Assembly: GCF_011067745.1 (NCBI RefSeq)
Contig: NZ_JAAMPJ010000006.1
Span: 473,019-537,018 of the forward strand
DNA length: 64,000 nucleotides
Source: Lentzea alba
GTDB lineage: Bacteria; Actinomycetota; Actinomycetes; Mycobacteriales; Pseudonocardiaceae
Direction of reading: 5' to 3'
In this document: piece by piece, positions 4,551-50,311 of the stretch
Position numbering within the stretch: the stretch's first letter is position 1
How the letters are laid out: each line of letters begins with the position of its first letter
Made by a program: the position numbers and the translations under genes
The notes under the pieces: model-generated
Told to the model about the DNA's origin: nothing
Database searches by the model: none
The model's input: only the letters and a program-made list of their open reading frames with translations

Positions 4551-5003
4551 GTGACACAGGAGAGCGCGGGGGCGGATGCCGCTCTCAGTGCCGTCGCGGG
4601 TGTGGCCGGCGGGGCGATCGCTGGAGCGGTGAGCGCGTTCAAGGCCGCGTCGTCGATGATGGACAGACTGTCTGCTGGTCCGTCGAGTCAGCAGTTCCAC
4701 GTGGAGAAGGACACCGTCATGAGGGCGGGCAAGGTCATTCACGACCAGCTCAGCCTGTTGGAGACGGCGTACAAGACCAACGTCCCCAAGCTGCGGATCC
4801 CGTCCAGTGACGACCAGATCACCGAGGACATCGTAAAAGCTTGGAATGACCGGCTGGTTTTCCACGATGACTCCTACGCCAACAGAATCGCCCTCTACAT
4901 GGAGAAGCTGCGGAATCTTTCCGACCAGCTGAAGGAGTCGGCGCAGCAGTACGGCTACACCGATGACGAGGTTGCTGCCGTGTTCAGCAAGTCGAAAGAG
5001 TGA
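4551..5003 (+). CDS. Small helical PE-like T7SS-associated protein
   Basis: A 150-residue protein with no recognised catalytic motif. An Ala/Gly-rich stretch (residues about 8-35) precedes a predominantly helical body. The second half carries F-x-V, a long helix, a W-N-D turn (VKAWNDRLVF) and a final coiled segment LRNLSDQLKESAQQYGYTDDE. This layout matches the 123-residue product at 40308: FxV, two helices, a ND turn and a QYxxT ending. That protein also opens a cassette with a lipoprotein, PPE-like and EspG genes. I infer a helical-hairpin (PE/WXG-like) partner of the downstream PPE-like protein. The GTG start is preceded by a purine-rich GGGGGTAGGA. The stop overlaps the lipoprotein start by 4 bp. 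Confidence 0.6.
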   Translation: MTQESAGADAALSAVAGVAGGAIAGAVSAFKAASSMMDRLSAGPSSQQFHVEKDTVMRAGKVIHDQLSLLETAYKTNVPKLRIPSSDDQITEDIVKAWNDRLVFHDDSYANRIALYMEKLRNLSDQLKESAQQYGYTDDEVAAVFSKSKE

Positions 5004-5593
5004 CGATGCGCATATCCAAGCTTGCTGCCGTGGTTGTCATCGCGGCGGCCGTTTCGGCTTGTACCACTAGCGGCGAGAAGGGGAACCCCACTCCTGCGCC
5101 GTCGACCGGCACTTCCAACAGCGATTCGGGGAGCAAGCTGCCCGACCGTCCGCAGGCTCTCAAGCTGGATTCGGTGGACACCTGCAAGCTTCTCACGACA
5201 GAGCAGAGGAAGCAGATCGACGTCGTCTCCGCTGATCCGGTGCAGCTGGACCTGGTTGACGGCAAGAAGTCACCCAGCTGTGATTACAGCAGCGATGGTG
5301 GGTTCGGTTACCAGGTCGGGGCGGTCACCCACAACGGCGTTTCCTACTGGCTGCAGAGCGGCGGCAACGTTGATTCGAAGGTGATCAAGGTTGGCGACTA
5401 CGGTGCGGTGCAGGTCCAGCTCAAAGGTGGGTCCGGATTCGATTGCTCGGTGGCGGTCGACGTCGCTGACGGTCAGCAGTTGATGGTCAGCTACATCCCG
5501 ACCACCACGAAGGAGAAGGACCAGTCCGTCCTGTGCGGGAAGGCTGAGAAGGCCGCTGGTCTCGCGCTCTCGACGCTCAAGACATTGAAGTGA
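5000..5593 (+). CDS. DUF3558 domain lipoprotein, T7SS cassette A
   Basis: A 197-residue lipoprotein. The signal peptide is MRISKLAAVVVIAAAV and the lipobox is VSAC (Cys about residue 21), followed by a Ser/Thr/Pro/Gly linker. The DUF3558 pattern is clear: VDTCKLLTTEQRK, a conserved CDYS, FDCSVAVDV and a C-terminal VLCGKAEKAAGLAL. The GTG start at 5000 overlaps the preceding stop (GTGA); an internal ATG two codons later is also possible. The family is an extracytoplasmic lipoprotein of unknown function found near T7SS substrates in Pseudonocardiales. A similar lipoprotein precedes the second cassette at 39593. Confidence 0.88.
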   Translation: MTMRISKLAAVVVIAAAVSACTTSGEKGNPTPAPSTGTSNSDSGSKLPDRPQALKLDSVDTCKLLTTEQRKQIDVVSADPVQLDLVDGKKSPSCDYSSDGGFGYQVGAVTHNGVSYWLQSGGNVDSKVIKVGDYGAVQVQLKGGSGFDCSVAVDVADGQQLMVSYIPTTTKEKDQSVLCGKAEKAAGLALSTLKTLK

Positions 5594-5602
5594 GGGGGAG
5601 CC

Positions 5603-6898
5603 ATGTCGGGTTATCGGCAGCTCAATGACTGGAACTTCGACGGCTGGTCCAACCAGCAACTCGCGGACGAGGTCCAGAAGCTCGCGGGCAGCACGATCGC
5701 ATCGAAGTTCGGTGAGGCTTCGGAGGCACTGCGCACGCTGGCCAACTCACTCGAGTCCATCGACCAGACGATTCGTGCGCAGCTGACCGAACTCGACATC
5801 GCTTGGGGTGGCGAGGCCGGTAAGAAGAGCCACGAGCACACCGATGTGGTCGCCAAGGGCATCGACGACAGCAGCCAGGCGTCGCAGCAGAACTCGGACG
5901 CGATGACGCAGCAGGGCGAGAGCACCAGCACCGCCCGCTACAGCACGCCTCCTGAGCAGGATCTCCGCGGCGACACCGAACAGAACTTCAAGGACAAGGT
6001 CGGCGGTTTCTTCGGCATCGAGACCGACCACGCCGCCGAGGTCGAGGCGACCAACCGCGCGCGTCAGCAGGCCATCGACAGCCTCAACGGCTACGTGTCG
6101 AACAGCCAGGGCTCCCTCGACGGCTTCCGCGCCCCTGACAAGGCCCCGGACATCGTGGTGACCAGCGCCGCGGTAGCCACTCCCGTCGGTCCTCCCGTCG
6201 GAACCCCGACCGCGGGCACGCCCGGCATCCAAGGCGGCCCCGCCTTCACCGGCTCTCCGGGCAGCCCCGGCTCCCCAGGCGTCCCGGTCGGCCCCACCCC
6301 GAACATCCCCGGCAACGCCACCGGCGTCATCCCCGGCACCGGCACCCCGACCCCCGTCGCGACCGGCCCCGGCCTGCCCAAGCCGTTCGGCGTCCCGTCG
6401 ATCGGCCTCACCGCGGCCACGGCTGCGGCCAGCGGTCTCGCCGGCACGGCGGGTGCGGCGAAGGGTGCGCAGGTCGTGGGTGGTGGGCGTGGGCCTAGCC
6501 AGGCGCCGAAGACTCCGATCGCGCCTGCCGGGCCGAAGGGTGCCCCGAGCACGATCGGCGCGGGCGCCGGCAAGGGAGGTCCGGGCGCAGGCCCGGGTGG
6601 TGCGGCGGGTGCTGGAGGACCCGGCACGACCGGTGCTGCCGGCAAGGGCACGGTCACGCCTGGTGGCGCCACTGGCGTCGGGCCCGAGGCCAACCGGGCT
6701 GCGGCGGCCGGCAAGGGTGGTGTTGGCGGCGGTAAGGGATCCGGGTCGCTCATGTCGCCTGCGGCCAGTGCGGCCAAGGGTGAGGGCGAGGAGGACGGCG
6801 AGCACGTGCGCAAGTACGGCGTCGACTCCGACGAGATGTTCGGTGATGATCGTATGGTGGTGCAGTCCGTCATCGGCGAAGACCCGAAGGACCAGTAA
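5603..6898 (+). CDS. WXG/PPE-like T7SS substrate with Gly/Pro-rich tail
   Basis: A 431-residue protein. Residues about 1-170 are helical and WXG100/PPE-like: NWNFDGWSNQQLADEV early on, then LDIAWGGEAGKKS giving a W-G-G turn between two long helices. Residues about 185-385 are a low-complexity region rich in Gly, Pro, Thr and Ala, like secreted PPE-type proteins. The last 35 residues hold DSDEMFGDDRMVVQSVIG. This tail is shared with the PPE-like protein at 40695 (TDDVFGDDRMVAPPVIG), suggesting a secretion or chaperone-binding tail. The gene lies between a lipoprotein gene and an EspG gene and is preceded by a clear GAGGGGG ribosome site. Secretion through an ESX system is inferred. Confidence 0.8.
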   Translation: MSGYRQLNDWNFDGWSNQQLADEVQKLAGSTIASKFGEASEALRTLANSLESIDQTIRAQLTELDIAWGGEAGKKSHEHTDVVAKGIDDSSQASQQNSDAMTQQGESTSTARYSTPPEQDLRGDTEQNFKDKVGGFFGIETDHAAEVEATNRARQQAIDSLNGYVSNSQGSLDGFRAPDKAPDIVVTSAAVATPVGPPVGTPTAGTPGIQGGPAFTGSPGSPGSPGVPVGPTPNIPGNATGVIPGTGTPTPVATGPGLPKPFGVPSIGLTAATAAASGLAGTAGAAKGAQVVGGGRGPSQAPKTPIAPAGPKGAPSTIGAGAGKGGPGAGPGGAAGAGGPGTTGAAGKGTVTPGGATGVGPEANRAAAAGKGGVGGGKGSGSLMSPAASAAKGEGEEDGEHVRKYGVDSDEMFGDDRMVVQSVIGEDPKDQ

Positions 6899-6902
6899 TC
6901 CC

Positions 6903-7658
6903 TTGAGCTCACCAGGTTCTGTGGTTTTGTCCACAGTGGAGTTCGCCGTGGTCTGGGAGGCGCAACGCCTCCCGGCCGCGCACGTTGCTCTCGACACGCG
7001 GATTCCCTCCATCACCCACACCGAGAAGGCCGAGGTGGTGAAGCGGGCCTGGGAGTCGTTGGAGGCGCGCGGGCTGGCGAACAACGGGCGGGTGGTGTCC
7101 GAGTTGGCTGACGGCTTTGCCTTGCTGGCCAACTCGACCACCGCCATCGACCTGTGGATCTGGGCCGACCGGCAGATCAGCGGGCTCGCGGCGGCGATCG
7201 GGGACGAGGCGATCCTGGCGGTGCAGGATCGGGACGAGATGTGGTTGATCGAGGCCCGTGGGACCGCTCTCGCCGAGGCCGCGGTGTCGGTCGCCGGGGA
7301 CATGCCGGCCGGGTACGGGCGGTCGATCAGCCTGCCCTACGACGATCTGGTGGCCGCGGCCAAGGACGTCGGGCTGGACGCTCAGCGGATGATCACCACG
7401 TTGGAGCGGCAGGGAATGCGGCTCGGCGACGCGCAAGAGCTCGCTGGAATGCTCGACGGCACCTCGACGCGCGGGCAGTTCGGTGTGCAGCGCAATGGGC
7501 GGAGGGCCGGGCGGGTCGTTTCTTTTCACGACACGCACAACGGGCGTTATCTGCGCCAGCTCAAGCCGAGCAGTGACGGGCGCAAGTGGTGCACCATCAC
7601 GCCGGTCGACAACCATCGCCTCGCGGCTTCCATCTGGGAGCTCCTGCAAGAGGTCTGA
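6903..7658 (+). CDS. EspG-family ESX secretion chaperone, cassette A
   Basis: A 251-residue protein of the EspG family, cytosolic chaperones that bind PE-PPE pairs before ESX export. The N-terminal VVLSTVEFAVVWEA aligns with ITLSAEEFDVLWER of the second EspG here (41930). The C-terminal part has the family's RxGRVVSFHDTHNGRYL strand pair and a final TPVDNHRLAASIWELL helix. The frame is open far upstream inside the PPE-like gene. I chose TTG 6903 because it sits five bases after that gene's stop with GAAGGA upstream and matches the paralogue's N-terminus; GTG 6921 is the alternative. Its position directly after the PPE-like gene fits its role. Confidence 0.87.
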   Translation: MSSPGSVVLSTVEFAVVWEAQRLPAAHVALDTRIPSITHTEKAEVVKRAWESLEARGLANNGRVVSELADGFALLANSTTAIDLWIWADRQISGLAAAIGDEAILAVQDRDEMWLIEARGTALAEAAVSVAGDMPAGYGRSISLPYDDLVAAAKDVGLDAQRMITTLERQGMRLGDAQELAGMLDGTSTRGQFGVQRNGRRAGRVVSFHDTHNGRYLRQLKPSSDGRKWCTITPVDNHRLAASIWELLQEV

Positions 7659-7675
7659 TCGCGGAACCCCTGAGC

Positions 7676-7707
7676 GTGCCCGCCCGTCGAACCTGAGGGG
7701 CGGGCAC
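7676..7707. terminator. GC-rich hairpin after espG-like gene
   Basis: A perfect 10-bp inverted repeat, GTGCCCGCCC / GGGCGGGCAC, with a 12-base loop lies 17 bases after the EspG stop. There is no U-run, so it may be a weak or factor-assisted terminator, as is common in actinobacteria. Confidence 0.45.
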
Positions 7708-7746
7708 GAAAGAGCGAATCGGCGCCCTGCTCGGCACGATTCGTTC

Positions 7747-7752
7747 TAAGGT
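7747..7752 (+). promoter_or_regulatory. Candidate -10 upstream of EspC-like gene
   Basis: TAAGGT fits the actinobacterial TANNNT -10 consensus and lies 36 bases before the ATG at 7783, after the hairpin that separates this gene from the EspG cassette. A small inverted repeat CGAATC/GATTCG (7715-7743) overlaps the expected -35 region and could be an operator. No convincing -35 was seen. Confidence 0.35.
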
Positions 7753-7782
7753 CTTCGAGGAGACATGAGGGGGTAGGCGCGC

Positions 7783-8088
7783 ATGGCTGTGGCGAAGTTC
7801 AACAGCGAAGCCATGGAACAGTGCCGCACGACCGTGAGCAGCCAGGCCGGACAATTCGGCGCGATCGGTGACGGCTTTTCCAATCAGTACGGCAATCCGG
7901 ACATTTTCGGAAAACTCAGCGCTTCCGGTGCCATCTCGGGCGCGGTGACCGCAATGGATCAGGCGGGCGCGCAGGAATTCGAGGCGGCCGAGAAAGTGTT
8001 GCGCAAGGTCGAAAGCGCGCTCGACGCCGTTCAGACCAGCGTGCAGGACGTCGAGGACGTCAACAAGAACTCCATGAAGGCGGTCTGA
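7783..8088 (+). CDS. EspC/WXG100-like small T7SS protein
   Basis: A 101-residue all-helical protein of the size of WXG100, PE and EspC (DUF2580) proteins. Its first helix ends in a GNPDIFGKLSASG turn, and its second (MDQAGAQEFEAAEKVLRKVESALDAVQTSVQDVEDVN) is a long amphipathic heptad-like helix. It lacks a strict W-x-G; the turn has FGK instead. It is separated by a single base from the WXG-transglycosylase gene, so the two products are probably a secreted heterodimer. The ribosome site GAGGGGGTAGG supports the ATG. It resembles the small protein at 49988, which likewise precedes a large T7SS effector. Confidence 0.75.
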   Translation: MAVAKFNSEAMEQCRTTVSSQAGQFGAIGDGFSNQYGNPDIFGKLSASGAISGAVTAMDQAGAQEFEAAEKVLRKVESALDAVQTSVQDVEDVNKNSMKAV

Positions 8089-8089
8089 C

Positions 8090-9256
8090 GTGAGCGCGAT
8101 GGACGAGGTCGCGGCGCTGCCGGGAGGGGCTGAGCTGGCCGCGCTCGCGGACAAGATCGAGACCGCGCAACCGCAGGCCGTGCGCGACATCGCGAACCGC
8201 TGGAAGCAGGCGGCGGGCAAGTGCGGTGACCAGACGAACGCCCTGCAGCGGTCGGTCAGTCAGCTCGACGGCGCCTGGGAGGGCAAGTCGGCGGACGGGT
8301 TCGTCGCCTACATGGGCAACGTCACGAAGGCCGGCACCTCGATGACCGACGCGCTGGGCGGCGCCGCGGCCGACCTGGAGGCGGCCGCGAACGCGTTGGA
8401 GTCCGCGAAGACCTCGATGACGAGCATCTGCGAGAACCTGCTGAGCCGCGCTCGGCAGACGCGCCAGCAGCTGCACAACCAGCCGCAGGAGGACGTCGAC
8501 AGCATCATCCGCGGCTACTGCGCCGAGGCCACGAGTGACGCGAAACCTGTTATCTCCCAAGCGGAAAACGCCGTGAACGCCGCCGCAGGCACGCTCAAGG
8601 GCCGTCCTGGCGCGCTGTCGCCGAAGTTCTCGTCCGTCGAGGACCCGAACACGCAGTCCTTCACACCGGCACCGGGCAAGCCGATCGAGTGGGCACCGAG
8701 TGCGCCGCCCGACGACTCGACCAAAACGTCCTCTTCGGACTCTCCGCCCCAGCAGCAACAGCAGCAGCAACCAGCTCCCGCCCAGCACCAAGGCGGTGGT
8801 GGCGGCGGCGGAGGTGGCAACTCCGGAGGCGGCGGCGGTGGTGGCGGCGGAGGCGGCATGGGCCCCAGCGGCGGCCCGCCCTCCGGCAGCCCGCCTCCCG
8901 GCAACGTCGAGGAGTGGATCCGCGAGGCCATCAAGATCCTGCAGGCCAACGGCATCCCGGTCACCGACGCGAACATCGACGAGATCTGGAAGATCATCGA
9001 GAAGGAGTCGAGCGGCAACCCGCACGCCATCAACCTCTGGGACTCCAACTACCAGGCGGGGCACCCGTCCAAGGGCCTGATGCAGTGCATCGACTCGACG
9101 TTCAACGCCCACAAGCTGCCCGGTCACGACGACATCTGGAACCCGGTGGACAACATCATCGCCGGCGTCCGGTACACGTTCTCGCGCTACGGCGGCTTCG
9201 AAGGCCACCCCGGTCTCAAGGCGATGGCACAGGGCGGCGGCTACCAGGGCTACTGA
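8090..9256 (+). CDS. WXG100-like protein fused to SLT transglycosylase
   Basis: A 388-residue protein in three parts. Residues about 1-150 form a WXG100-type helical hairpin with W-E-G at 63-65. Residues about 190-272 are a Pro/Gln/Gly linker with runs of Gln and Gly. Residues about 273-388 are a lysozyme-like SLT domain: catalytic Glu about 305 in EKESSGNPHAIN, then GLMQCIDSTF and NPVDNIIAGVRY, which are standard goose-lysozyme/SLT motifs. No Sec signal is present, so export through a T7SS using the WXG hairpin is inferred. It would cleave peptidoglycan outside the membrane, either to let the secretion machine cross the wall or as an antibacterial effector. The GTG start lies one base after the EspC-like stop. 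Confidence 0.88.
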   Translation: MSAMDEVAALPGGAELAALADKIETAQPQAVRDIANRWKQAAGKCGDQTNALQRSVSQLDGAWEGKSADGFVAYMGNVTKAGTSMTDALGGAAADLEAAANALESAKTSMTSICENLLSRARQTRQQLHNQPQEDVDSIIRGYCAEATSDAKPVISQAENAVNAAAGTLKGRPGALSPKFSSVEDPNTQSFTPAPGKPIEWAPSAPPDDSTKTSSSDSPPQQQQQQQPAPAQHQGGGGGGGGGNSGGGGGGGGGGGMGPSGGPPSGSPPPGNVEEWIREAIKILQANGIPVTDANIDEIWKIIEKESSGNPHAINLWDSNYQAGHPSKGLMQCIDSTFNAHKLPGHDDIWNPVDNIIAGVRYTFSRYGGFEGHPGLKAMAQGGGYQGY

Positions 9257-40307: not shown

Positions 40308-40679
40308 GTGTATCTCGCGGACGGTGGCGGTGGCGGTTCGACGCCTCCGGAGTTCGGGCAGCGCAAGCTGAAGGTCGATCCCTCGGCGATTCCGCAGGCC
40401 CGGAAGGCGTTCGAGCACGCGCTGTCGGAGTTCGAGAACAAGATCGCGCAGGCCGTGCACGACCTGCCCACGAAGCCTTGGGCGCAGGACCCGATCAGCA
40501 GCGAGACCTCGAAGGCGTTCAACGACCAGACGTCGGAGAAGGCGCTGGCTGCCCTGAACGTCTACAAGGAGCAGCTCGTCGGCGTGATCGCCCAGTTGAC
40601 CCGCATCGAACAGCAGTACCGCCTGACCGAGGGCGACAACGAGGCCATGTGGGGCAAGCACCTGCGAGACCGAGGCTGA
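40308..40679 (+). CDS. PE-like small T7SS protein, cassette B
   Basis: A 123-residue protein with a Gly-rich start (YLADGGGGG) and then a helical hairpin. Helix 1 runs from VDPSAIPQARKAFEHALSEF, a turn follows at KPWAQDPISSETSKAFNDQ, and helix 2 ends IEQQYRLTEGDN. Its F/L-x-V, ND turn and Q-Y-x-x-T ending match the 150-residue protein at 4551. GAGGAGGG lies 7 bases before the GTG. It precedes the PPE-like gene by 15 bp, the gene order of PE-PPE pairs. It is therefore probably the binding partner of the PPE-like protein in export. Confidence 0.72.
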   Translation: MYLADGGGGGSTPPEFGQRKLKVDPSAIPQARKAFEHALSEFENKIAQAVHDLPTKPWAQDPISSETSKAFNDQTSEKALAALNVYKEQLVGVIAQLTRIEQQYRLTEGDNEAMWGKHLRDRG

Positions 40680-40694
40680 GAGGGGGACTGACCG

Positions 40695-41933
40695 ATGACT
40701 GACCACCGCTTTCAGGGGTACGGACACCCCGAGCTGTACAAGATGATCAACTCTGGTCCCGGCGTCTCCGCCTCGATCCCGGTGGAGCAGGGTTGGAAGA
40801 CGATCGCGGCCACGCTCGCCCAGATCGACGGCGACCTGCACCAGGCGCTCGGCAAGATGGGCGCGGACTGGGAGTCCGACGCAGCCGACGCCGCGCAGGG
40901 CGCGTTGTCGCCGCTCGCCCAGTGGGCCGGGTTCGCCGAGCAGGGCGCCACGACCATGGAGAGCTCCGCGCGGCTGCAGGGCGAGTACATCGCCGACGCG
41001 CGCAAGAAGATGCCCGAGGTCGTCCCGGTCACGACCGAGAAGCCCGGCTTCATGGACATGGCGGTCGGCGCGCTGACCGGTCCGGTCGGCATGGCGCACG
41101 TCGTCGGCCAGCAGCTGGACCACGAGAAGCAGGAAGCGGCCGCGGACAACGCCGCCGCCCAGGCCGTCAAGGTCATGGAGGACTACCAGTCGGACAGCCG
41201 CTGGAACTCCTCGACGCTCGGTGAGTTCCCGCAGCCGCCGCAGGTCGTGATCGACACGCCGCCGCCCGCCGACACCGGCACCGGCAGCACGCGCGTCGGC
41301 TACACCCCGACCGGCGCGCCGTCGCCGTCGGGCAACACCGGCACGACGAACCCGGCGTGGGCGACGCCGCCGTCGACCCAGCAGCACGTGTCGACAGGGT
41401 GGACGCCTCCGCCCACCGACACCACGCACGTGTCGTGGACGCAGCCGCCGACGCCTCCTCCGCCTCCGCCGGTTCACACCCCGCCGCCGACGAGCTTCCC
41501 GCAGCCGACGCCGCAGCCGACCCCGACGCCTGGTGGACCGGTGTTCACCCGGCCCTCCACGGACGTGCCCGGTGGCGGCCGCGGTGGCCAGTCCGGCAAC
41601 GTTCGCGGTGGTCAGCTCGGTGGTGGCAAGGCGTTCGGGCCGATGTCCGGCTCGCTCGGCTCGTCCGGCCAGCAGGGCCCGATGAAGCCCGGCGGCCTGC
41701 CCGGCATGGGCGGCGCCGAGGGCATGCGCGGCGGGGCCATGGGCTCCGGTGCGGGTGCCGCCGGCAAGGGCGGTGCTGCCGGTGCTGGTGCCGGTGGTGG
41801 CGCGCACGGCCAGAAGGGCGAGGGCGAGGACGACATCGAGCACAAGGCCGCCGACTACCTGGTCGAGACCGACGACGTGTTCGGTGACGACCGGATGGTG
41901 GCGCCGCCCGTCATCGGCGGCTTCTCGGAATGA
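40695..41933 (+). CDS. PPE-like T7SS substrate with Pro-rich tail
   Basis: A 412-residue protein. Residues about 1-160 form a PPE/WXG-type helical domain: helix VEQGWKTIAATLAQIDGDLH, a W-E-S turn in GADWESDAADAAQG, and a second long helix. Residues about 180-380 are Pro/Thr/Gly-rich low complexity, including a PPTPPPPPP run. The C-terminal segment DYLVETDDVFGDDRMVAPP, then VIG, matches the tail of the cassette A protein at 5603. It ends in ATGA overlapping the EspG start, so chaperone and substrate are coupled. Export by an ESX system is inferred; its fate outside the cell is unknown. Confidence 0.83.
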   Translation: MTDHRFQGYGHPELYKMINSGPGVSASIPVEQGWKTIAATLAQIDGDLHQALGKMGADWESDAADAAQGALSPLAQWAGFAEQGATTMESSARLQGEYIADARKKMPEVVPVTTEKPGFMDMAVGALTGPVGMAHVVGQQLDHEKQEAAADNAAAQAVKVMEDYQSDSRWNSSTLGEFPQPPQVVIDTPPPADTGTGSTRVGYTPTGAPSPSGNTGTTNPAWATPPSTQQHVSTGWTPPPTDTTHVSWTQPPTPPPPPPVHTPPPTSFPQPTPQPTPTPGGPVFTRPSTDVPGGGRGGQSGNVRGGQLGGGKAFGPMSGSLGSSGQQGPMKPGGLPGMGGAEGMRGGAMGSGAGAAGKGGAAGAGAGGGAHGQKGEGEDDIEHKAADYLVETDDVFGDDRMVAPPVIGGFSE

Positions 41934-42736
41934 GCTTGTTCGGCGGTACGGCGGAGAGGGAGCCGATCACTCTCTCCGCCGAGGAGTTCGACGTGCTGTG
42001 GGAACGCATGAACGTCGGCCCCATGCCGCTCGTGCTCAAAGTTCCCACGCCCGGCAAGACGCGGGACGAGCGCATCCAGCTCGAGAACCGCGTCTACCAG
42101 CAGTTGGACCACCGCCGCCTGGGCAACTCGCGCGGGTTGTCGTCCGAACTGGACGGGCTGCTGCGCATGTTCGTCAAGCCCGAGCGGGAGGCGGACGGCC
42201 GCCTCTGGCTGGGCAGGAGCCTGCGCGTTCTCGCCGTCGCGAACGGTGACTTCGGCGCGCTGGCGACGCTGCGCGACGACCAGTTGACGTTCCAGCCGTG
42301 GGCGGGCTCCGGGCTCGCCTCCGCGGTGCTCTCGGTGCTGCCGTCCCATCCGGCCGGCACGGGGCTGTCGGTGACGCTGCCCAGCGCGGACATCGAGAAG
42401 GCGATCTCGCAGACCGACGGTTCGCCGAAGTCGATGGAGGCCGCGTTCCGGGGCATCGGCCTGCGCGAGGACGACGCCAAGGCGCTGGTGAAGATGTTCA
42501 CCGGGCTGGTGCACACGGGCAATTTCGGTGCGGCGTGCCGGGACAAGTACGGCAAGCGGTGGCGACCCGAGCGCGTGGTCGCGTTCTTCGACACCGAAGA
42601 AGGCCGCTACCTGCAGCAACGCCGTGCCTCGAACGGCCAGCCGCCGTGGAGCACGTTCACGCCGACCGACGCCCGCCGGATGATGCACCAGGTGGACGAG
42701 CTGATCTCCGAGGCGGTTCGTTCCGCAAGCGCCTGA
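41930..42736 (+). CDS. EspG-family ESX secretion chaperone, cassette B
   Basis: A 268-residue EspG-family protein, paralogue of the product at 6903. It shows ITLSAEEFDVLWERM at the start, GNSRGLSSELDGLLRMF and WLGRSLRVLAVANGDFGALA in the middle, and the C-terminal strand pair RPERVVAFFDTEEGRYLQQ followed by TPTDARRMMHQVDELI. EspG chaperones bind the tip of the PPE protein in a PE-PPE dimer and keep it soluble for export. The ATG overlaps the PPE-like stop by 4 bp. Each EspG is probably specific for its own cassette. Confidence 0.88.
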   Translation: MSLFGGTAEREPITLSAEEFDVLWERMNVGPMPLVLKVPTPGKTRDERIQLENRVYQQLDHRRLGNSRGLSSELDGLLRMFVKPEREADGRLWLGRSLRVLAVANGDFGALATLRDDQLTFQPWAGSGLASAVLSVLPSHPAGTGLSVTLPSADIEKAISQTDGSPKSMEAAFRGIGLREDDAKALVKMFTGLVHTGNFGAACRDKYGKRWRPERVVAFFDTEEGRYLQQRRASNGQPPWSTFTPTDARRMMHQVDELISEAVRSASA

Positions 42737-42786: not shown

Positions 42787-44430
42787 ATGAACATCGACAG
42801 ACGACGATTCCTGCTGGCTACAGGAGTCGCGCTGGTCGGCTCGTCAGCGATGACGGGGAGTGCGTCCGCAGCGCCCTCCCCCTCGCTCTGGCAGGAGTTC
42901 GTGGCGAACCCGTACAACCACCCGCAGATCCCGAACATCGCTTACGCCGGCTACCGGACCGGTGAAAGGCCCGCTCGTAGGCCTGTGCTGGCGAACGTGC
43001 TGTTCTTCGGCGCACGCCGGGACGGCTCGGCCGACGCCTCGGTGGCGATCAACCGGGCGATCGAGTTCGTGGGCAGGCTGGGTGGTGGCACCGTCTTCGT
43101 GCCACCGGGTCGCTACCGGATCGACGACATCATCCGCATCGGCTACGACAACGTGGTGCTGCGCGGTGCGGGCAGCACGAAGACGACGTTCTGGGCGACC
43201 CGGTCGCTGGAGGAGATCGTCGGCATCAACCGCAGCCGCTACGGCTCGGAGAACTCGGCGTGGAGCTGGTCGGGCGGTCTGGTGTGGGTGTGTCACCGCG
43301 ACCGCAGCAAGTCTCTCATCGACGCGATCAAGGCGCGCAAGTGGCCTTTCGAGGGCTGGACGGGCAACGAGCTGGAGCAGGGCTCGACCCTGACCGGCGT
43401 CACCGGCTCGGCGGCGCGCGGTGCGTTCGTCGTGACCGTCGAGAACGGACGGAAGCTGCGCGCCGGTCAGCGCGTGTTGTTGCGGCTGGACGACTTCGAG
43501 TACTCGCTGCCGATACACATGTGCGGTGACCTTCCCGGCTGTTCGTCCTACAAGTGGGACGACAAGGACAAACTCCTGTCGTACTTCCCGTTCCTGTGGC
43601 CGGTGCGCGTGGAGTGGGTGCGCGGCAACAGGGTCAAGCTCGCGCAGCCGTTGCCGCTGGAGATCCGACCGGAGTGGAAGGCGCGCCTGACCACGATGGC
43701 GCCGGTCGTCACGGGTGCGGGCGTCGAGGGCATCAAGATCGAGATGTTCCGGGTGCCGACGCCGAAGCACCTGCAGGACAAGGGGTACAACGGTCTCGCG
43801 TTCCAGTGCGCGTGGGACTGCTGGGCCGACGACGTGCACGTGCAGGACGTCGACAACGGGTTCCTGCTGGTGTCCGCCAAGGGAATCTCGCTGCTGAACA
43901 CGCGGGTGTCCGGCCGCGGTCACCACCACGCGTATGCGACGCGCGAGCAGTCCCACGACAACCTCACCGACGGGTTCGTGATCGAGGCACCTTCAGAGCC
44001 GTCCCAGGCCGGCGCGGGCAACCACGGGTTGAACGTCGAAGGCTTGTCCTGCGGCAACGTCTGGACTCGCGGCAGGATGGACCACGACGTCTTCGACACC
44101 CACCGCGGTCTGCCGTTCGGGAACGTCCGCACCGAGATCACCATCAACAACGTCGGTGCGCACGGCGGCAGCGCGAACGCGGGTCCGTTGTACGGCGCCA
44201 GGTTCACGCACTGGAACGTCACGGTGACGAACCAACGCGCCGGCAACGTCCGCATCGACCAGGTGGCCCCGTGCAGTGCCACGGTGGCGATCTCCGAGGT
44301 GCGCGACTTCGGTCAGGTCGACAAGCCGGACTTCGCCGGGCCGTTGAACTCGCGACTGGAGCTCTACGGCACCACGGACGTCACGCCGCGCAACCTCTAT
44401 GACGCGCAACGAAAGTTGCGTCGCTCATGA
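42787..44430 (+). CDS. Tat-exported beta-helix (pectate lyase-like) protein
   Basis: A 547-residue protein with a twin-arginine signal (DRRRFLLATG, then a hydrophobic stretch and SASAA cleavage region). The mature part begins with the pectate-lyase-superfamily motif LFFGARRDGSADASVAIN and FVPPGRYRIDDIIRI. It continues with right-handed parallel beta-helix repeats (NVVLRGAGSTKTTF; GVEGIKIEMF; DDVHVQDVDNGFLL; ISLLNTRVSGRGHHHAYA). A carbohydrate-active lyase or hydrolase is likely, but the catalytic residues cannot be assigned. It follows the EspG gene by 50 bp. Tat export implies folding, perhaps with cofactor, before transport. The ends of this gene and the convergent EccC-like gene overlap by 6 bp. 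Confidence 0.82.
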   Translation: MNIDRRRFLLATGVALVGSSAMTGSASAAPSPSLWQEFVANPYNHPQIPNIAYAGYRTGERPARRPVLANVLFFGARRDGSADASVAINRAIEFVGRLGGGTVFVPPGRYRIDDIIRIGYDNVVLRGAGSTKTTFWATRSLEEIVGINRSRYGSENSAWSWSGGLVWVCHRDRSKSLIDAIKARKWPFEGWTGNELEQGSTLTGVTGSAARGAFVVTVENGRKLRAGQRVLLRLDDFEYSLPIHMCGDLPGCSSYKWDDKDKLLSYFPFLWPVRVEWVRGNRVKLAQPLPLEIRPEWKARLTTMAPVVTGAGVEGIKIEMFRVPTPKHLQDKGYNGLAFQCAWDCWADDVHVQDVDNGFLLVSAKGISLLNTRVSGRGHHHAYATREQSHDNLTDGFVIEAPSEPSQAGAGNHGLNVEGLSCGNVWTRGRMDHDVFDTHRGLPFGNVRTEITINNVGAHGGSANAGPLYGARFTHWNVTVTNQRAGNVRIDQVAPCSATVAISEVRDFGQVDKPDFAGPLNSRLELYGTTDVTPRNLYDAQRKLRRS

Positions 44431-46059
44431 GCTGACGGCGTACATCGCGACTGGCAGTGACCGTGCGACCGAGTCGAGATCGGTGGGGAGCACGAAGCTC
44501 TCCACCGATCTGCCGATGCGGCGCACCCAGCCGTTCTCGGTGAGTTCCAGGCGGTATGAGGTGTGCAGCTGGGGCAGGTCGCTGGGTGGCGTCGAATCGG
44601 ACAGCAGCAGGTGCTGGCCGTACGTGCGTCCTACCTGGGTGAGGGTCTGCAGCGTGGCGAAGAACGCCGGCCTTGCTGCTGCCAGGCCGTGCACGCCGTC
44701 CACGCAGACGAGCAGCCGCGGCGATGCGGCGCCATCCGCCAGCATCCTGATGCGTTGTTCGAGGTCGTCTTTCAGATCGTGTGGTTGCACATGTGGTGCG
44801 TGCTCCAGACCCGCGAACGCACCAGTGCGGTGGAAGTCGATGAGGACGACCTGGAGTTCGTCCGGCGAGTGCCACAGCATCTGGCCGAGAATCAGCGCCT
44901 TGAGCGCGTCCGCACGTCGTTCTGGAGGCGCCACGACCTCGCCGTGCGGACCCATCCCGTCCTCGGTGAGACCGGCTTTGATGTCGATCTCGACGGGCTG
45001 ACCGTGTTCGTCCACGCCCACCGCTGTCCGGTACCGCAACTTGACCGGACGCGGCCGCCATCCGTGCGTCGTGTCGAACTTCGGCATGTCGTGCAGGGTG
45101 AAGAAGTCCGGCGGTGGCTCGGCCTCGCGCATCAGGCGGGGCAACTCGCCGGCGTGCTGGTCCAGGTTCGCCGGCGTGGTGCAGTCGTCGATCTGAACGT
45201 TCGCCGACTCGTGCGGGGCGTCCAGCAGCAGCTGCATCCCGGACCTGCCGACGTCCTGGGCGATGGCGGCGAGGGCGGTGCCGAGCTCCGTGGCTTCGAC
45301 GTCCCGGAAACCGGTGACGCAGATGAGAAGCTGAGGCAGCACCTGGTGCAGGCCGCGGTGGTCGAAGATCGTCCAGGTGTTGCCGACGATCTCCAGCCGT
45401 CGTTCGGACTCGGCCAGCAGGACGTCCGCGATCCGTGCGGGGTTCTTCGTCGCGTTGCGGTGATGTGCCTGCACGTGCGGCGCCTGGTCCAGTCCGGCGA
45501 ACGCGTCCGTGTCGTGCGCGTCGATGAAGATCGTGTGGAACAGCCGGGGCGAATGCGTCGTCATCAGGCCCAGCACCAGACTCCGGAACGCTGCCGGCGC
45601 GGTGACGCTGAGGTGCGATCCCGTGCGCCACTTGCCGTCCACGAAGTGGGTGAGCTCGACGACGACCGGCTCACCGGTGCTGTCGATGCCGATCGGGACC
45701 TTCCACCACCGGCCCTTCCACGCGAGCGCCTTGGTGAAGGTGCTCAGGCCGTGCAGGGCGAGGAAGTCCATCCGCACCAACGATCGCAGGTGCTTCGGCA
45801 CGTCGGTCAGCGTGCCGGTCGTGATGACCACCCGGACGTCCCGTGCCGTCGAGGTGATCCACCGAACGGCCTCGGCGAGCCCGGGATCGCTTGCCGCGCA
45901 GAGCTTCCAATCGTCGATCAGCAGCGTCGCACCGGGCTCGGCGCCGCGTTCGAACCACGTCAGCAGGTTCTGGCAGCGGCGCTGGTCAGCGGGGTCGAAC
46001 GAGACGTTGACCGGCTCGGCCGGCGTGCCGCGGCCGATGCGGTAGACCTGCCCGGTCAC
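44425..46059 (-). CDS. EccC/FtsK-like pseudo-ATPase, second of tandem pair
   Basis: A 544-residue protein. It starts (GTG, overlapping the upstream stop) with YRIGRG...WFERGA...LLIDDWKLC, the Walker B half of a P-loop module, homologous to residues 33-82 of its upstream neighbour. Two EccC-type modules follow. The first has SHLSVTAPAAFRSLVLGLMT where a Walker A should be, then IFIDAHDTDAFAGLDQAPHV. The second has PHGEVVAPPERRADALKALI, then LIDFHRTGAFAGLEHAPHV and LLVCVDGVHGLA. The D-x-x-x-x-x-F-A-G-L-x-x-x-P-H-V block is diagnostic of EccC D1 domains. No GxxxxGK[ST] remains anywhere, so it is probably a scaffold or substrate-binding partner, not an ATPase. Confidence 0.78.
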   Translation of the reverse strand: MTGQVYRIGRGTPAEPVNVSFDPADQRRCQNLLTWFERGAEPGATLLIDDWKLCAASDPGLAEAVRWITSTARDVRVVITTGTLTDVPKHLRSLVRMDFLALHGLSTFTKALAWKGRWWKVPIGIDSTGEPVVVELTHFVDGKWRTGSHLSVTAPAAFRSLVLGLMTTHSPRLFHTIFIDAHDTDAFAGLDQAPHVQAHHRNATKNPARIADVLLAESERRLEIVGNTWTIFDHRGLHQVLPQLLICVTGFRDVEATELGTALAAIAQDVGRSGMQLLLDAPHESANVQIDDCTTPANLDQHAGELPRLMREAEPPPDFFTLHDMPKFDTTHGWRPRPVKLRYRTAVGVDEHGQPVEIDIKAGLTEDGMGPHGEVVAPPERRADALKALILGQMLWHSPDELQVVLIDFHRTGAFAGLEHAPHVQPHDLKDDLEQRIRMLADGAASPRLLVCVDGVHGLAAARPAFFATLQTLTQVGRTYGQHLLLSDSTPPSDLPQLHTSYRLELTENGWVRRIGRSVESFVLPTDLDSVARSLPVAMYAVSS

Positions 46060-47531
46060 GGCGCCGCGATCTGGACGGCGGTCTTGTCGTGCACGGAAAG
46101 CCCCATGCCGGGCTGGTCCGGCACGTGCGAGGCGCTGCGGGCGTTGATCAACGACGTGTTCGGGTCGTCCAGCCGGAGCTCGATGCCGAACGCCAGGCTG
46201 TCCTTGATGAACTGCGGGACCTGGTCCCACGTGTGCGCGGTGACGACGATGTGCCGTTGCGGGTCGAGGGGCTCGCCGGGCCCGTCGAGCAGCTGGAACG
46301 CGCTGAGATCGCCGAGCGCGGCGGCGAGGGTCCGCAACGCCGTGGACTTGCCGCTGCCGGGCGCGCCGACGATGGCGCCGTGCCGCAGCTCGGTCGTGAA
46401 GTGCGGGACGAACGGGTCGCGGCGGTGTTCGTACGGCTTGTCGAGCAGGCCGACGGCGCCGGGCGGGAGCATGCCCAGGGTCAGCGGTTCCTCGAGCGGT
46501 GGCAGCACGATCTCGTAGGCGAGTCCGCCACCGGTGACGTCCGGCAGGTCGTCGAGCGCCTCGGCGAAGTCGTGGGTCGGGTTGGCGAGCGGCCACTCCG
46601 GCAGCTCGTACGGAATCCCTTGGGGCACTTGGCCTGCGAACACGACGTGCATGCCCAGTGAGCGACCGGCGCGCATGGCCATCAACAGCGCCGCGAGGAA
46701 CTTCGGTTCCCTTGCCAGGAAAGCCTCCGCCCCGGACACGCAGATGATCAGCTCGGGGACGCGGTTCCCTTCCGTGTGAACGATCTCCTGCCGCCGGTTG
46801 ATCTCACCGTAGAACGCGTCCAGCAGCCGGACGACCATCGCGTCGTCCGCCGCCGGCGTGATCGTGAACGCGACCTGGTCCACGAACGCCAGCGGGTCGA
46901 AGACGCCGCTGCCGTCACCGTCGACGAAGAGGTACTGCACGTGGTCGGCCGAGTGCGTGACCATCAGGCCGAGCAGCGCGCTCTGCAACTGGGCCGGTGT
47001 GCCGCGGTGCACGGCGCTGCCCAGCGTGATCTCGACGTGGACCGGCCAGCCCCGGTCGTCGACACCGGCGGCGGCCTTGAGGTCGTCGCGCTGCCACATG
47101 TTGCTCAGATCGGCCTCGATGCCGTGCAGCGCGAGGAAGTCCGTCGGCTCGCCGAGCAGGTGCCTGCGCAACCGGTCCGGCAGGTCGGCCCACTTCCGCG
47201 CCGTGACGACGACCTGCACCCCACGCGCGGGCCCCAAAGCCGCGATCCACTCCACGGTCCGGTCCAGCTCAGGGTCCTGCCCGGCGCACAACGCCCAGTC
47301 GTCCACCAGCAACACCGCCCCCGACGGCGCCCCGCGCTCGAACCAGTCCAGCAGACTCCGGCAGCCGGGCTGGTCGGACGGATCGAACGTGGCCGCCACC
47401 GGCAACGGGTCAGCGCCCCGCCCGATCCGGTAGACCGCCGTGTCCGGCGCGGCCGCGAGAGCGGCCGTCAACCGCTCCCTGGTCGCCTGCCCGGGACCGA
47501 CGACGGCGAAGTTCCTGATCACCGCCCACAT
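46056..47531 (-). CDS. EccC/FtsK-like protein with one intact P-loop
   Basis: A 491-residue protein of three P-loop-like modules. Module 1 (about 1-130) has an eroded loop VVGPGQATRERL but a Walker B-like VLLVDDW. Module 2 (about 160-305) keeps the EccC order (ALLGLMVTHSADHVQYLFVD; LIICVSGAEAFL; MHVVFAG) but no Walker A. Module 3 (about 360-491) has intact GAPGSGKSTALRTLA at 389, then passes within about 30 residues to IVVTAHTWDQVP and the EccC-type SASHVPDQPGMGLS ending, omitting most of a normal ATPase core. There is no membrane segment. It is probably a T7SS-associated motor remnant or regulator. ATG 47531 or GTG 47522 is the start. Confidence 0.78.
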   Translation of the reverse strand: MWAVIRNFAVVGPGQATRERLTAALAAAPDTAVYRIGRGADPLPVAATFDPSDQPGCRSLLDWFERGAPSGAVLLVDDWALCAGQDPELDRTVEWIAALGPARGVQVVVTARKWADLPDRLRRHLLGEPTDFLALHGIEADLSNMWQRDDLKAAAGVDDRGWPVHVEITLGSAVHRGTPAQLQSALLGLMVTHSADHVQYLFVDGDGSGVFDPLAFVDQVAFTITPAADDAMVVRLLDAFYGEINRRQEIVHTEGNRVPELIICVSGAEAFLAREPKFLAALLMAMRAGRSLGMHVVFAGQVPQGIPYELPEWPLANPTHDFAEALDDLPDVTGGGLAYEIVLPPLEEPLTLGMLPPGAVGLLDKPYEHRRDPFVPHFTTELRHGAIVGAPGSGKSTALRTLAAALGDLSAFQLLDGPGEPLDPQRHIVVTAHTWDQVPQFIKDSLAFGIELRLDDPNTSLINARSASHVPDQPGMGLSVHDKTAVQIAAP

Positions 47532-47567
47532 ATACCAACAGCGCCCGGACCGCCGCTGCCCCTTCGC

Positions 47568-47573
47568 TAATGT
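47568..47573 (+). promoter_or_regulatory. Leaderless -10 (TAATGT) for sterol-carrier-family gene
   Basis: TAATGT ends 7 bases before GTG 47581, the same spacing as the other leaderless-type promoters here, and supports that start codon. It lies within the 49 bp between the divergent EccC-like gene and this gene. Confidence 0.5.
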
Positions 47574-47580
47574 GGGCGAC

Positions 47581-47958
47581 GTGCCAGCCAAAGCCGTCGA
47601 TCCAGCCGAGATGCGAGCCGCCGTGCAGGCCGTGCTCCCCTGGCTGCGAGGCGAGGCCGACCAGCCCTCCCGCCCCGAACTGGCCGCCGCCGTCCGCCTG
47701 AGCCTGCGCACCCTCGAACAGATCGCACCGGGCCGCAGCGTCGAGGTCCGCGTCCCCCCGTTCGCCGCCGTGCAGTGCGTCGAGGGCCCGCGCCACACCC
47801 GCGGCACGCCCCCGAACGTCGTGGAGACCGACCCCCGCACCTGGCTGGAACTGGCGACCGGCGACCTGGCCTGGTCCGACGCCCTGGACGGCGCTCGGGT
47901 CACCGCGTCCGGGACCCGAGCCGACCTCTCCCACCTGCTGCCGGTGGTGCGTTTCTAG
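47581..47958 (+). CDS. Sterol carrier family protein
   Basis: A 125-residue protein of the small actinobacterial family annotated as sterol-carrier-like. It reads VDPAEMRAAVQAVLPWLRG at the start, has the conserved RSVEVRVPPFAAVQCVEGP and HTRGTPPNVVETDP blocks, and ends ASGTRADLSHLLPVVRF. The hydrophobic-pocket fold suggests lipid or acyl binding, but the ligand is unknown. In related genomes it lies next to purF from memory; here it is 3.7 kb away, with T7SS genes between. The stop shares CTAG with the convergent hydrolase gene. Confidence 0.83.
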   Translation: MPAKAVDPAEMRAAVQAVLPWLRGEADQPSRPELAAAVRLSLRTLEQIAPGRSVEVRVPPFAAVQCVEGPRHTRGTPPNVVETDPRTWLELATGDLAWSDALDGARVTASGTRADLSHLLPVVRF

Positions 47959-49991
47959 AAGATCCGGCCGATCGTGTTGTCGTAGGCCGACTTCGCGCCG
48001 TCCTTGACGGCGTTGCCGGCGTCCTTGGCCATGTCGACGCCGCCCTCGACGACGGCCTTGCCACCCTCGTACACGTCGCGCCCGAGTTCGGCCGCCTTGC
48101 CGACGGTGTCGACGGTGGCGTCGAGCGCGTCGCTGCCGACCTCCTTGGCGGTGCCCCAGGCGTGGTCGCCGGCCGAACCCCAGTCGCCTCGGCCGATGTC
48201 GCCGACCACCTGCTTGCCGCCCTGGTAGACGTCGCCGACCACGTCGACGCCCTCCTTCACGACACCGCTGCCCCAGTCGAGCACCGGGCCGACCCCGGGA
48301 AGGTCCGAGCCGGGCAGGTTCGGTGAGGTCGGACGGTCGTACCAGGGGTCGCTGCTGACCTCGCCACCGCGACCGGTCGCGATCTTGCCGAGGTTCTCCA
48401 GCGACTCGCTGTTCTCGTCGTAGTAGGCGGAGTGGGCCTCGGCGATGCCCTTCGACTCCGTGGTGCCGAAGTGCGTGCCGCCGAACTCCTTGTCGTACGG
48501 GCCGGTGGACGAACCGTCCTCGGTGAACCAGTTCGAGCTGGTGCCCTGCACGACGGGGTCGTGCTCGGTGCCGCCGACGTACACGTGGCCGGGTCCGGCG
48601 GAGAGCTGGTTGACGTTCGACGCGCCGACGCCGGGCGAACCGACGAACGCGATGTCGTCCGCCTTCAGGCCGTTCATGCCCGCGTGGCCGACGGTGGCGC
48701 TGCCGTAGCTGTGGCCGATCACGGTCAGGTGCTGGCCCTCGGGACCGGCGGCGCGGTAGCCGTCGACGTCCTTCACCAGGTTCTGGCCGCCCTCGCGAGC
48801 CTGTGCCGGGTTGTCGACCTCGCCGGGCGACCAGCCGGGCGCGTCGTAGCCGAGCCACTGGATGGTGGCGTTGTCCGGGCCACCGCCCATTTCCTCACGC
48901 AGGTTGGCCGCCTGGTTCCAGCTGAAAGCACCCACGTCGGAGCCGGTACCCGGCACGCAGACCGCGAGGTTCTTCGCGGTGTCGGGGTTGCCGAACGCCA
49001 CCGCGATCTGTGCGTCGCCACGTGGTCCGGTGGGGTCCCACGCCATGACACGGGCGTTTTCGCCGTTGAACTTCTCCCGCGACTTCTCGTCGGCCTCGTC
49101 CAGGCTCTTGTTGGCCTTCTCGCAGTTCTCCTTGATGTTCGTGGCGGCCAGCCGCTCGTCCAGCAGCTTCGCCAGCTGCGGGTCGTTGCTGTTGCGCAGC
49201 GCGGCTTCGTTGTTCGGGTCCAGCCCGAGCTGGGCAGCCCGCTCGTTGATCGCCTTCGTCGACTGGTCGATCGTGGCGTTGGCCTTGCTGAGATCGTCGT
49301 TGATGCGCCTGCGGTTGGCCGTGTCGAGCACGTCCGACGGCAGACCGCGCAGCTTGCCGAGCTCCTGGAACCGGTCGCGCAGCAAAGCTTGCTGCTGCTC
49401 TGGCGTGAGCGACTTCCACCACGCGGCGACGGCCTTCGGGTCCGTGTTCGGTCCCGGCACCTGCGGTCCGGCGGCACGACCCTGTGCGGCGCGACCCCAG
49501 CCGCAGTCGGTGCGCGCGGACTCCTCGAAGCCCGGAGGGATCTTGGTGAGAGCGCCCGCGTAGGAACGCAGCACGTTCTCGTAACCCGACTTGACCTTGG
49601 TCAGCGAGTCGTTGACCTGGTTGGCGAGCGTGCGCGTCTGCTCCTCGTCCATGCCCGGCGGACGGCTGCGCCACACGCTGATCGCCTGATCGGCGGCGGT
49701 GCGCATCTGGCCGTAGGCCTGGGACGCTGCTCGGACGATCTCGGCGCCCGCGCCCAGGCGCTCACCGGCGGCCTTGGCGGCCGTCGCGGAGAGGTCGGCG
49801 CGTGCGGTGAACTTCTGCGCGGTGGTGCCGGTCCAGTTGCTGACCGCGGCCTTGCCGCCCTTGGCGACCGACTCACCGGCCCGGCCGACCGCGCTCATCG
49901 CACCGGTGATCGGGTCGGCGGCAGCGGCGATCCGGCCGACGTCTCCTGCCGCGAGCTTGCCGTACAGGCTCTCGGGATCCGTGTAGCTCAC
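47955..49991 (-). CDS. WXG-type protein with DUF1023 alpha/beta hydrolase domain
   Basis: A 678-residue protein. Residues about 1-165 are a WXG-like helical domain with W-T-G at 53-55. Residues about 185-560 form a DUF1023 alpha/beta hydrolase: AAWWKSLTPEQQQALL and LRGLPSDVLDTANR lead in, then VCVPGTGSDVGAF, the nucleophile elbow VIGHSYGSA (Ser about 428), VGSPGVGA, and a possible catalytic His in EAHSAY (about 520). The last 110 residues are an amphipathic region with repeated Y-x-G-G-K-x-V-V segments. No Sec signal is present, so T7SS export with the small protein encoded just upstream is inferred. It is probably an esterase-type effector. GTG 49991 overlaps the upstream stop. Confidence 0.88.
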   Translation of the reverse strand: MSYTDPESLYGKLAAGDVGRIAAAADPITGAMSAVGRAGESVAKGGKAAVSNWTGTTAQKFTARADLSATAAKAAGERLGAGAEIVRAASQAYGQMRTAADQAISVWRSRPPGMDEEQTRTLANQVNDSLTKVKSGYENVLRSYAGALTKIPPGFEESARTDCGWGRAAQGRAAGPQVPGPNTDPKAVAAWWKSLTPEQQQALLRDRFQELGKLRGLPSDVLDTANRRRINDDLSKANATIDQSTKAINERAAQLGLDPNNEAALRNSNDPQLAKLLDERLAATNIKENCEKANKSLDEADEKSREKFNGENARVMAWDPTGPRGDAQIAVAFGNPDTAKNLAVCVPGTGSDVGAFSWNQAANLREEMGGGPDNATIQWLGYDAPGWSPGEVDNPAQAREGGQNLVKDVDGYRAAGPEGQHLTVIGHSYGSATVGHAGMNGLKADDIAFVGSPGVGASNVNQLSAGPGHVYVGGTEHDPVVQGTSSNWFTEDGSSTGPYDKEFGGTHFGTTESKGIAEAHSAYYDENSESLENLGKIATGRGGEVSSDPWYDRPTSPNLPGSDLPGVGPVLDWGSGVVKEGVDVVGDVYQGGKQVVGDIGRGDWGSAGDHAWGTAKEVGSDALDATVDTVGKAAELGRDVYEGGKAVVEGGVDMAKDAGNAVKDGAKSAYDNTIGRIF

Positions 49992-50311
49992 TTGCCGCCC
50001 CCAAGTCCCTGCAGAAGCTTCGTCAGCGCGGACGCGTGGTCGTCGTCCGTGCGCTGGTAGGCGTCGGCGTTCGACACGAGGCCTTCCGCGGCGTCGGTGA
50101 TCCAGGCGGAACCGCGCTGCAGGTCCTGCGCGTGCGTGCCCACGAACTTCGACAGCGCGTCGGCGAACTCGGCGGCCGCGTCGACCTCGCCGAGCGCACC
50201 GGCGTCGAGCTTGAGCATCGAGATCATCTCTGCCGCCTCACGCACCGCGTCTGAGCCGTTGCCGAACTCCTTGGACGCGCTGCGCAGCAACTCGGGCTCA
50301 ACGCCGAACAT
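49988..50311 (-). CDS. EspC/DUF2580-like small T7SS protein
   Basis: A 107-residue helical protein of the EspC/DUF2580 type. It shows VEPELLRSASKEFGNGSDAV, then a hairpin and second helix FADALSKFVGTHAQDLQRGS, and a C-terminal DAYQRTDDDHASAL with the Y-x-x-x-D-like export pattern seen in T7SS partners. It ends in a Gly-rich tail. ATG 50311 has GGGGG upstream at proper distance; a GTG two codons earlier overlaps that site. It overlaps the hydrolase gene by 4 bp and is probably its co-secreted partner. Confidence 0.8.
   Translation of the reverse strand: MFGVEPELLRSASKEFGNGSDAVREAAEMISMLKLDAGALGEVDAAAEFADALSKFVGTHAQDLQRGSAWITDAAEGLVSNADAYQRTDDDHASALTKLLQGLGGGK

Follow-up and report, generated by a model that had tools for sequence, protein, structure and literature searches.

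Membrane-free, EccC-derived proteins predicted to be pseudo-ATPases, conserved within a PE/PPE/EspG satellite of Lentzea

Here we describe two overlapping genes, B and A, on the minus strand of a 64,000-nucleotide stretch of the 10.2-Mb genome of Lentzea alba (contig NZ_JAAMPJ010000006.1, positions 473,019 to 537,018; hereafter the window), whose products are almost certainly conserved pseudo-ATPases derived from EccC, the secretion ATPase of type VII secretion systems (T7SS). D1 is the main ATPase of EccC. Judged from their sequences, both products are homologues of EccC D1 and D2, and hence relatives of EccC and FtsK but no motor, the FtsK-like fold being supported by modelling for the first module of B (BM1) only. 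Nearly every ATP site has been lost, yet the proteins are kept by selection, and the pair therefore probably helps to choose or regulate cargo rather than to pump it. We give a probability of roughly 40% to the fuller statement that B and A are soluble pseudo-motors with which PE/PPE-EspG cargo, or else the D1 pocket of the real EccC, docks in the cytosol.

An earlier reading, made from the sequence alone (the sequence-only reading), had proposed two overlapping EccC-type genes with five modules. The overlap, four nucleotides of GTGA, and the EccC-type nature of the modules stand; the count rises to six, since AM1 is a D2-like unit without its P-loop part, and the start of B moves from 47531 to the GTG at 47522 (VIRNFAVVG), common to 23/23 full orthologues. 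The ATG at 47531 lies upstream of this GTG and is retained in the closest species only. B consists of a D2-like module, a D1-like module and linker 2 plus a further D2-like module, and A of one D2-like and two D1-like modules:

46056..47522, minus strand: gene B, 488 residues, three EccC-type modules
44425..46059, minus strand: gene A, 544 residues, three EccC-type modules, without a P-loop
47103..47522, minus strand: BM1, D2-like, P-loop eroded (GPGQATRE), Walker-B-like VLLVDDW retained, D2-like fold in the AlphaFold model
47475..47498, minus strand: degenerate P-loop position of BM1, intact in 0/23 orthologues, GPGQATRE in 13
47286..47315, minus strand: Walker-B-like strand of BM1, VLLVDDWALC, DD in 23/23
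46518..47102, minus strand: BM2, D1-like, P-loop in 0/23
46416..46517, minus strand: linker-2-like segment joining the D1-like BM2 to the D2-like BM3
46059..46415, minus strand: BM3, shortened D2-like, bearing the sole P-loop of the pair
46341..46367, minus strand: BM3 P-loop, GAPGSGKST, intact in 23/23 (pattern GxPG[ST]GK[ST]T)
45724..46059, minus strand: AM1, BM1-like (D2-like), P-loop part missing in this species, Walker-B-like LLIDDW retained
45094..45723, minus strand: AM2, D1-like, VTAPAAFRS at the P-loop position (45580-45606)
44428..45093, minus strand: AM3, D1-like, VVAPPERRADA at the P-loop position (44905-44937)

EccC ancestry, as first proposed, is supported by family profiles, a known structure and hhalign comparisons. 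The best NCBIfam matches are TIGR03925 for B (4.5e-37, 127.6 bits) and TIGR03924 for A (1.9e-38, 132.6 bits), well short of the scores required of a full EccC (346.55 bits for TIGR03925 and 509.15 bits for TIGR03924); the two true EccCs of the same genome reach 920 and 852 bits against TIGR03924. The EccC structure 4nh0 is matched at 4e-20 by B and at 1.1e-22 by A. Hhalign places BM1, BM2, BM3, AM2 and AM3 on EccC D1 or D2 with probabilities of 95-99.9%; AM1 alone matches D2 weakly (17.5%) and was assigned through its match to BM1 (99.9-100%). Identity between one of the genome's own EccCs and five of the modules is 31-42% in the aligned parts. In a tree of the modules, BM2, AM2 and AM3 form one clade each and AM2 joins AM3 at 0.85, but EccC is not monophyletic in it, so that any order of the D1-like duplications read from it would be tentative. 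The MADS defence protein mad8 was set aside as a relative: its best stretch covers only 49 of 314 profile positions (1e-13), and this match appears generic for EccC, as the genome's own EccC matches mad8 far better (positions 1-277, 7.6e-59).

The hhalign module map contains no D0 (DUF) or D3 part in B or A (best D0 probability 59%, for AM3; no module with D3 as best match), and the EccC order DUF-D1-D2-D3 occurs in neither protein. The proposal that both are membrane-free agrees with hydropathy: the best 19-residue Kyte-Doolittle mean is at most 1.49 in the B set and 1.76 in the A set, whereas the own EccCs reach 2.13 and 2.11, and no EccC-like hydrophobic segment is seen by this measure, no dedicated transmembrane predictor having been run. 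Structure prediction, suggested at the outset as a check for an EccC fold, gave a model of B with a mean predicted local distance difference test score (pLDDT) of 44, in which BM1 alone is confident and folds as a whole D2-like domain that aligns to the EccCb1-D2 structure 9jv8. A Foldseek search with this model ranked EccC/EssC first, using the BM1 range only, with a template-modelling score of about 0.2, low because the model of B is poor. On the part modelled with confidence, the absence of an EccC/FtsK fold, which the sequence-only reading had named as a result that would undo it, was not borne out.

Our genus sample comprised 24 Lentzea genomes. B was matched in all of them, in one (G019) over the first 130 residues only, the first module standing alone there as a 127-residue gene; two further genomes (G010 and G016) carry B without A, and the other 21 carry both. 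The motifs GPGQATRE, GTPAQLQS, GAPGSGKST, VTAPAAFRS and VVAPPERRADA are present as the sequence-only reading had quoted them, and the near-complete loss of P-loops that it pointed out, one module excepted, is conserved in all 23 B and 21 A orthologues. An intact P-loop is found in none of the 23 for BM1 or BM2 and in none of the 21 for AM2 or AM3; the P-loop part of AM1 is absent in six species, this one included, and the other fifteen are without GK[ST]. Four loci (L040-L043; genomes G011, G001, G023 and G009) have a longer A with a fourth, D2-like module, AM4, which reads GKPGSGRTT in 4/4, arginine replacing lysine. As controls, 32 true EccCs keep the P-loop of D1 in 31/32 (exception L122) and that of D2 in 32/32, and the GKT of D3 in 32/32. 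Among the D1-like modules the Walker B aspartate is found in 21/23 (BM2), 0/21 (AM2) and 20/21 (AM3), with the glutamate lost, and a Walker A together with an hhhhDE Walker B occurs in BM2, AM2 or AM3 of no orthologue.

The sole intact P-loop thus sits in a D2-type module, BM3, and not in a D1-type one. It may bind nucleotide; ATP hydrolysis is doubtful even here, because the central part of the D2 domain is deleted. The LLDG strand of BM3 aligns to the Walker B strand of D2 in a comparison with the own EccC, and could, in our reading, be strand 2 instead. An active ATPase might nevertheless be assembled if the BM3 P-loop formed one composite motor site with the acids on the Walker-B-like strand of a BM1 or AM1 module, from the same or a neighbouring chain, as would suit the invariant BM3 P-loop, the missing middle of BM3 and the DD kept in 23/23 BM1 and 20/21 AM1 modules despite loss of their own P-loops. 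We hold this to be distinctly improbable, since LLDG may be the Walker B of BM3 itself, BM1 folds alone as a whole domain and G019 has BM1 without BM3.

Erosion that is uniform across orthologues, taken with low substitution ratios, argues for a conserved pseudo-ATPase and not a decaying gene. Frames are open for B in 23 genomes and for A in 21. Across close pairs chosen by hand, whole-gene Nei-Gojobori omega ranges from 0.20 to 0.42 for B (9 pairs) and from 0.14 to 0.48 for A (8 pairs); among single modules, BM2 peaks at 0.72 and AM1 at 0.83, each in one pair. None of the 23 B or 21 A orthologues restores a missing P-loop, and loss so conserved is neither sequencing error nor decay; both explanations, which the sequence-only reading had named as those that would undo it, were ruled out by the open orthologues and the whole-gene omega of 0.14-0.48. 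By these measures both genes are kept genus-wide by purifying selection, and are the product of neither chance nor decay. That the pair is a decaying EccC remnant is accordingly a very improbable view and already largely refuted: the eroded motifs, the single module of G019, the lack of A in G010 and G016 and a single-module omega of 0.7-0.8 in some pairs would suit it, but the open frames, the whole-gene omega, the P-loop in 23/23 and the gene overlap in 21/21 speak against it. The Lentzea kentuckyensis counterpart of B is 95% identical across the whole of B.

The most informative clue to function is linker 2, to which the sequence-only reading did not refer and for which a docking role is putative. 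B retains the D1-linker 2-D2 stretch of EccC, with the linker motif LPPL..L..LPPG..G..DkP..RRD, and seven linker 2 positions are invariant in 23/23 B proteins. Passages of two articles (PMC9765416 and PMC7028111, both citing Bunduc et al.) name linker 2 as the proposed PE/PPE recognition site on EccC, and an excerpt of PMC6954902 has D3 of EccC binding EsxB.

The pair lies within a satellite cassette of PE-, PPE- and EspG-like genes, in agreement with the satellite cassettes that the sequence-only reading placed nearby:

40308..40679, plus strand: satellite small PE/WXG-like protein, matches below cut-off
40695..41933, plus strand: satellite PPE-like protein, 25.8 bits, just under the Pfam cut-off of 26
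41930..42736, plus strand: satellite EspG family chaperone
42787-44430, plus strand: pectate-lyase-like protein (PF12708), converging on A with a 6-bp overlap
47572..47958, plus strand: SCP_3 family gene, divergent from B
47955..49991, minus strand: satellite DUF1023-type alpha/beta hydrolase (Abhydrolase_8)
49988..50311, minus strand: satellite EspC-like protein

EspG, the small PE/WXG-like protein and DUF1023 flank the site in 24/24 Lentzea loci; gene calling recovered the PPE-like protein, the pectate-lyase-like gene and DUF3558 in 23/24 and the EspC-like protein in 21/24, and may itself account for some of the misses. For comparison, 120 genomes were searched, and the nine non-Lentzea loci with the best EspG matches, from four genera, served as an outgroup. 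In eight of these only 31-135 bp separate the aligned ends of EspG and SCP_3, and in the ninth (L112) two other genes lie there; purF-purM adjoin the cassette in eight of the nine, and the PF12708 gene was not found at the site in any of the nine. A cytosolic scaffold that took over EccC modules for work unrelated to type VII export would be in keeping with a satellite that does without the pair and with the lack of a known partner. Such recruitment is unlikely, given that the pair was found only inside the ESX satellite, at the same site in 24/24 loci, and is of EccC origin.

Within the cassette, the DUF1023-type hydrolase shares 62% identity with its counterpart in the closest species (L039), against 94% for B and 98% for EspG; the first 160 columns of this DUF1023 alignment are 82-89% identical and columns 161-320 only 32-51%. 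This pattern suggests a polymorphic secreted protein that has undergone exchange. Because DUF1023 seems to have passed between species, we set aside a tree of EspG and DUF1023 proteins in which the window, G005 and G011 branch before G019. A second ESX satellite, at 4602-9256 on the plus strand, encodes a PPE-like protein, EspG and a WXG100 protein that carries a transglycosylase (SLT) domain.

Outside the genus, profile searches scored only the three best first-look candidates per genome. On these terms the B profile had no full-length match outside Lentzea in 390 family genomes (366 non-Lentzea) at E <= 1e-25, and no match outside the genus in 397 order and 396 phylum genomes (genus members included) at E <= 1e-35; the A profile matched 21 of the 390 family genomes at E <= 1e-60, all of them Lentzea. 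Among the matches listed outside the genus in the family search, the best reached 6.7e-32, and they cover approximately model positions 134-315 in frames of 728-2097 residues, as EccC would. Searches of 37 plasmid and 2 phage records returned only partial matches; none covered 80% of the query, and the widest was to a phage record (65% of the query, 24.5% identity).

In FastTree trees of purL codons and of purL and EspG proteins, G019 splits first (the other 23 together at 0.989 and 0.957); G010 with G016 come next and separate from the remaining 21, for which the protein tree gives 0.898 and the codon tree no value; EspG alone yields the same order, with support of 59 for the G019 split. This order fits a stepwise growth from none through the first module and B to B with A, and nested loss, in two events, explains it equally. 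In G019 (L061, L167) the satellite has no adjoining purF-purM in the fetched stretch and purL is on another contig, so this cassette may have moved.

Soluble docking of cargo or motor is the most economical reading of B and A, because the D1-linker 2-D2 stretch is kept, D3 is lacking and PE-, PPE- and EspG-like genes adjoin. The two proteins would be made together from one message, next to the PE/PPE/EspG cassette; the linker-2 region would be the cytosolic platform on which either PE/PPE-EspG cargo or the D1 pocket of a real EccC docks; and the single nucleotide site of BM3 would act as a bound-nucleotide switch or as a structural site, without a power stroke. Several observations weigh against this docking role. 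The linker 2 tryptophan is found in 32/32 EccCs and in 0/23 B proteins; A is without the linker 2-D2 part in this species; the linker/BM3 part modelled alone has a mean pLDDT of 32 and so no usable structure prediction; the genome's own two EccCs are encoded elsewhere and not at the B-A locus; and no interaction or phenotype is known for either protein. In addition, the cassette is present and B and A are absent in nine of nine outgroup loci, which, together with the lone 127-residue module of G019, indicates that the pair is not required for the cassette.

The same parts could serve an inhibitor or governor of the core motor, in which B would mimic linker 2-D2 and fill the D1 pocket of EccC or poison mixed hexamers. 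Retention of the D1/D2 folds and of linker 2 would suit this, as would the auto-inhibition reported in an excerpt of PMC6954902, where the pockets of ATPase1 and ATPase2 hold the inter-ATPase linker. With the location in a cargo cassette fitting a cargo role better, the linker tryptophan lost and no contact with EccC in evidence, we regard inhibition as somewhat unlikely. The cargo-docking role can also be carried further, to a stand-alone T7SS cargo receptor in which the PE/PPE-reading D1-linker 2-D2 segment of EccC would have been freed from the membrane, multiplied and stripped of its motor chemistry within one genus, step by step along its tree, and one nucleotide site, perhaps composed of the BM3 P-loop and the BM1/AM1 acids, would switch loading for the adjacent cassette; taken as a whole, this is quite unlikely.

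Two features bear on the putative joint expression of the pair:

46056..46059, minus strand: GTGA overlap of the B stop and the A start; a four-nucleotide GTGA/ATGA overlap occurs in 21/21 A-bearing loci, the window included
47530..47534, minus strand: conserved TATAT/TATAC box just 5' of the B GTG, a putative promoter element

Only 49 bp (47523-47571), well conserved genus-wide, lie between the GTG start of B and that of SCP_3, which is read in the opposite direction. With the SCP_3 start so near and the box just before the GTG, the B-A message is likely to be leaderless, and both divergent messages may be. The 5' end of SCP_3 makes up part of the block upstream of B, and with one copy of this block found in a genome search, a regulon built on it was rejected.

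The choice of PE/PPE cargo by EccC, and the roles of linker 2 and D2, are hard to study as long as they are part of a large hexamer in the membrane. With a D1-linker 2-D2 protein that is naturally free of the membrane and conserved without motor chemistry, in related species that carry none, the first module, B, or B and A, recognition could be examined separately from the motor in soil bacteria. The pair would also offer a recent case, and one that can be placed, in which a secretion ATPase became a pseudo-enzyme. In the literature searched, mostly at title and abstract level, no account came up of EccC-derived proteins that are membrane-free and have eroded P-loops, in line with the earlier statement that no described system has this arrangement; the words truncated, degenerate and orphan are absent from the main text of a survey of EccC/EssC diversity (PMC11217815).

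Like EccC (EccCa/EccCb; 4nh0, TIGR03924, TIGR03925), the pair has D1- and D2-type modules and, in B, linker 2; unlike EccC, no transmembrane, DUF or D3 part was found in it, its D1-like modules are without P-loops, D2 is repeated and shortened, and the order DUF-D1-D2-D3 gives way to D2-D1-D2 in B and D2-D1-D1 in A, with scores far under the family cut-offs. EccCb1 of ESX-1, where EccC is split after ATPase1, is likewise an EccC part made as a separate protein, but an excerpt of PMC6954902 describes it as ATPase2-ATPase3 with EccCa1 as partner, whereas B and A have D1-like modules, lost P-loops and no D3. The DUF domain of EccC (NBD0) is also a degenerate ATPase fold, with a non-catalytic or structural role proposed in the available part of PMC11154593; the modules of B and A match D1 or D2 instead of D0. 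Each of the Gram-positive variants T7SSc to T7SSj has, in the passages available from PMC11217815, a membrane-bound ATPase with four predicted NTPase domains, in contrast to the membrane-free B and A. By these comparisons B and A are clear descendants of EccC that depart from it in all four defining features of the motor that were tested, namely the family cut-off, the transmembrane helices, the Walker motifs of D1 and the domain order.

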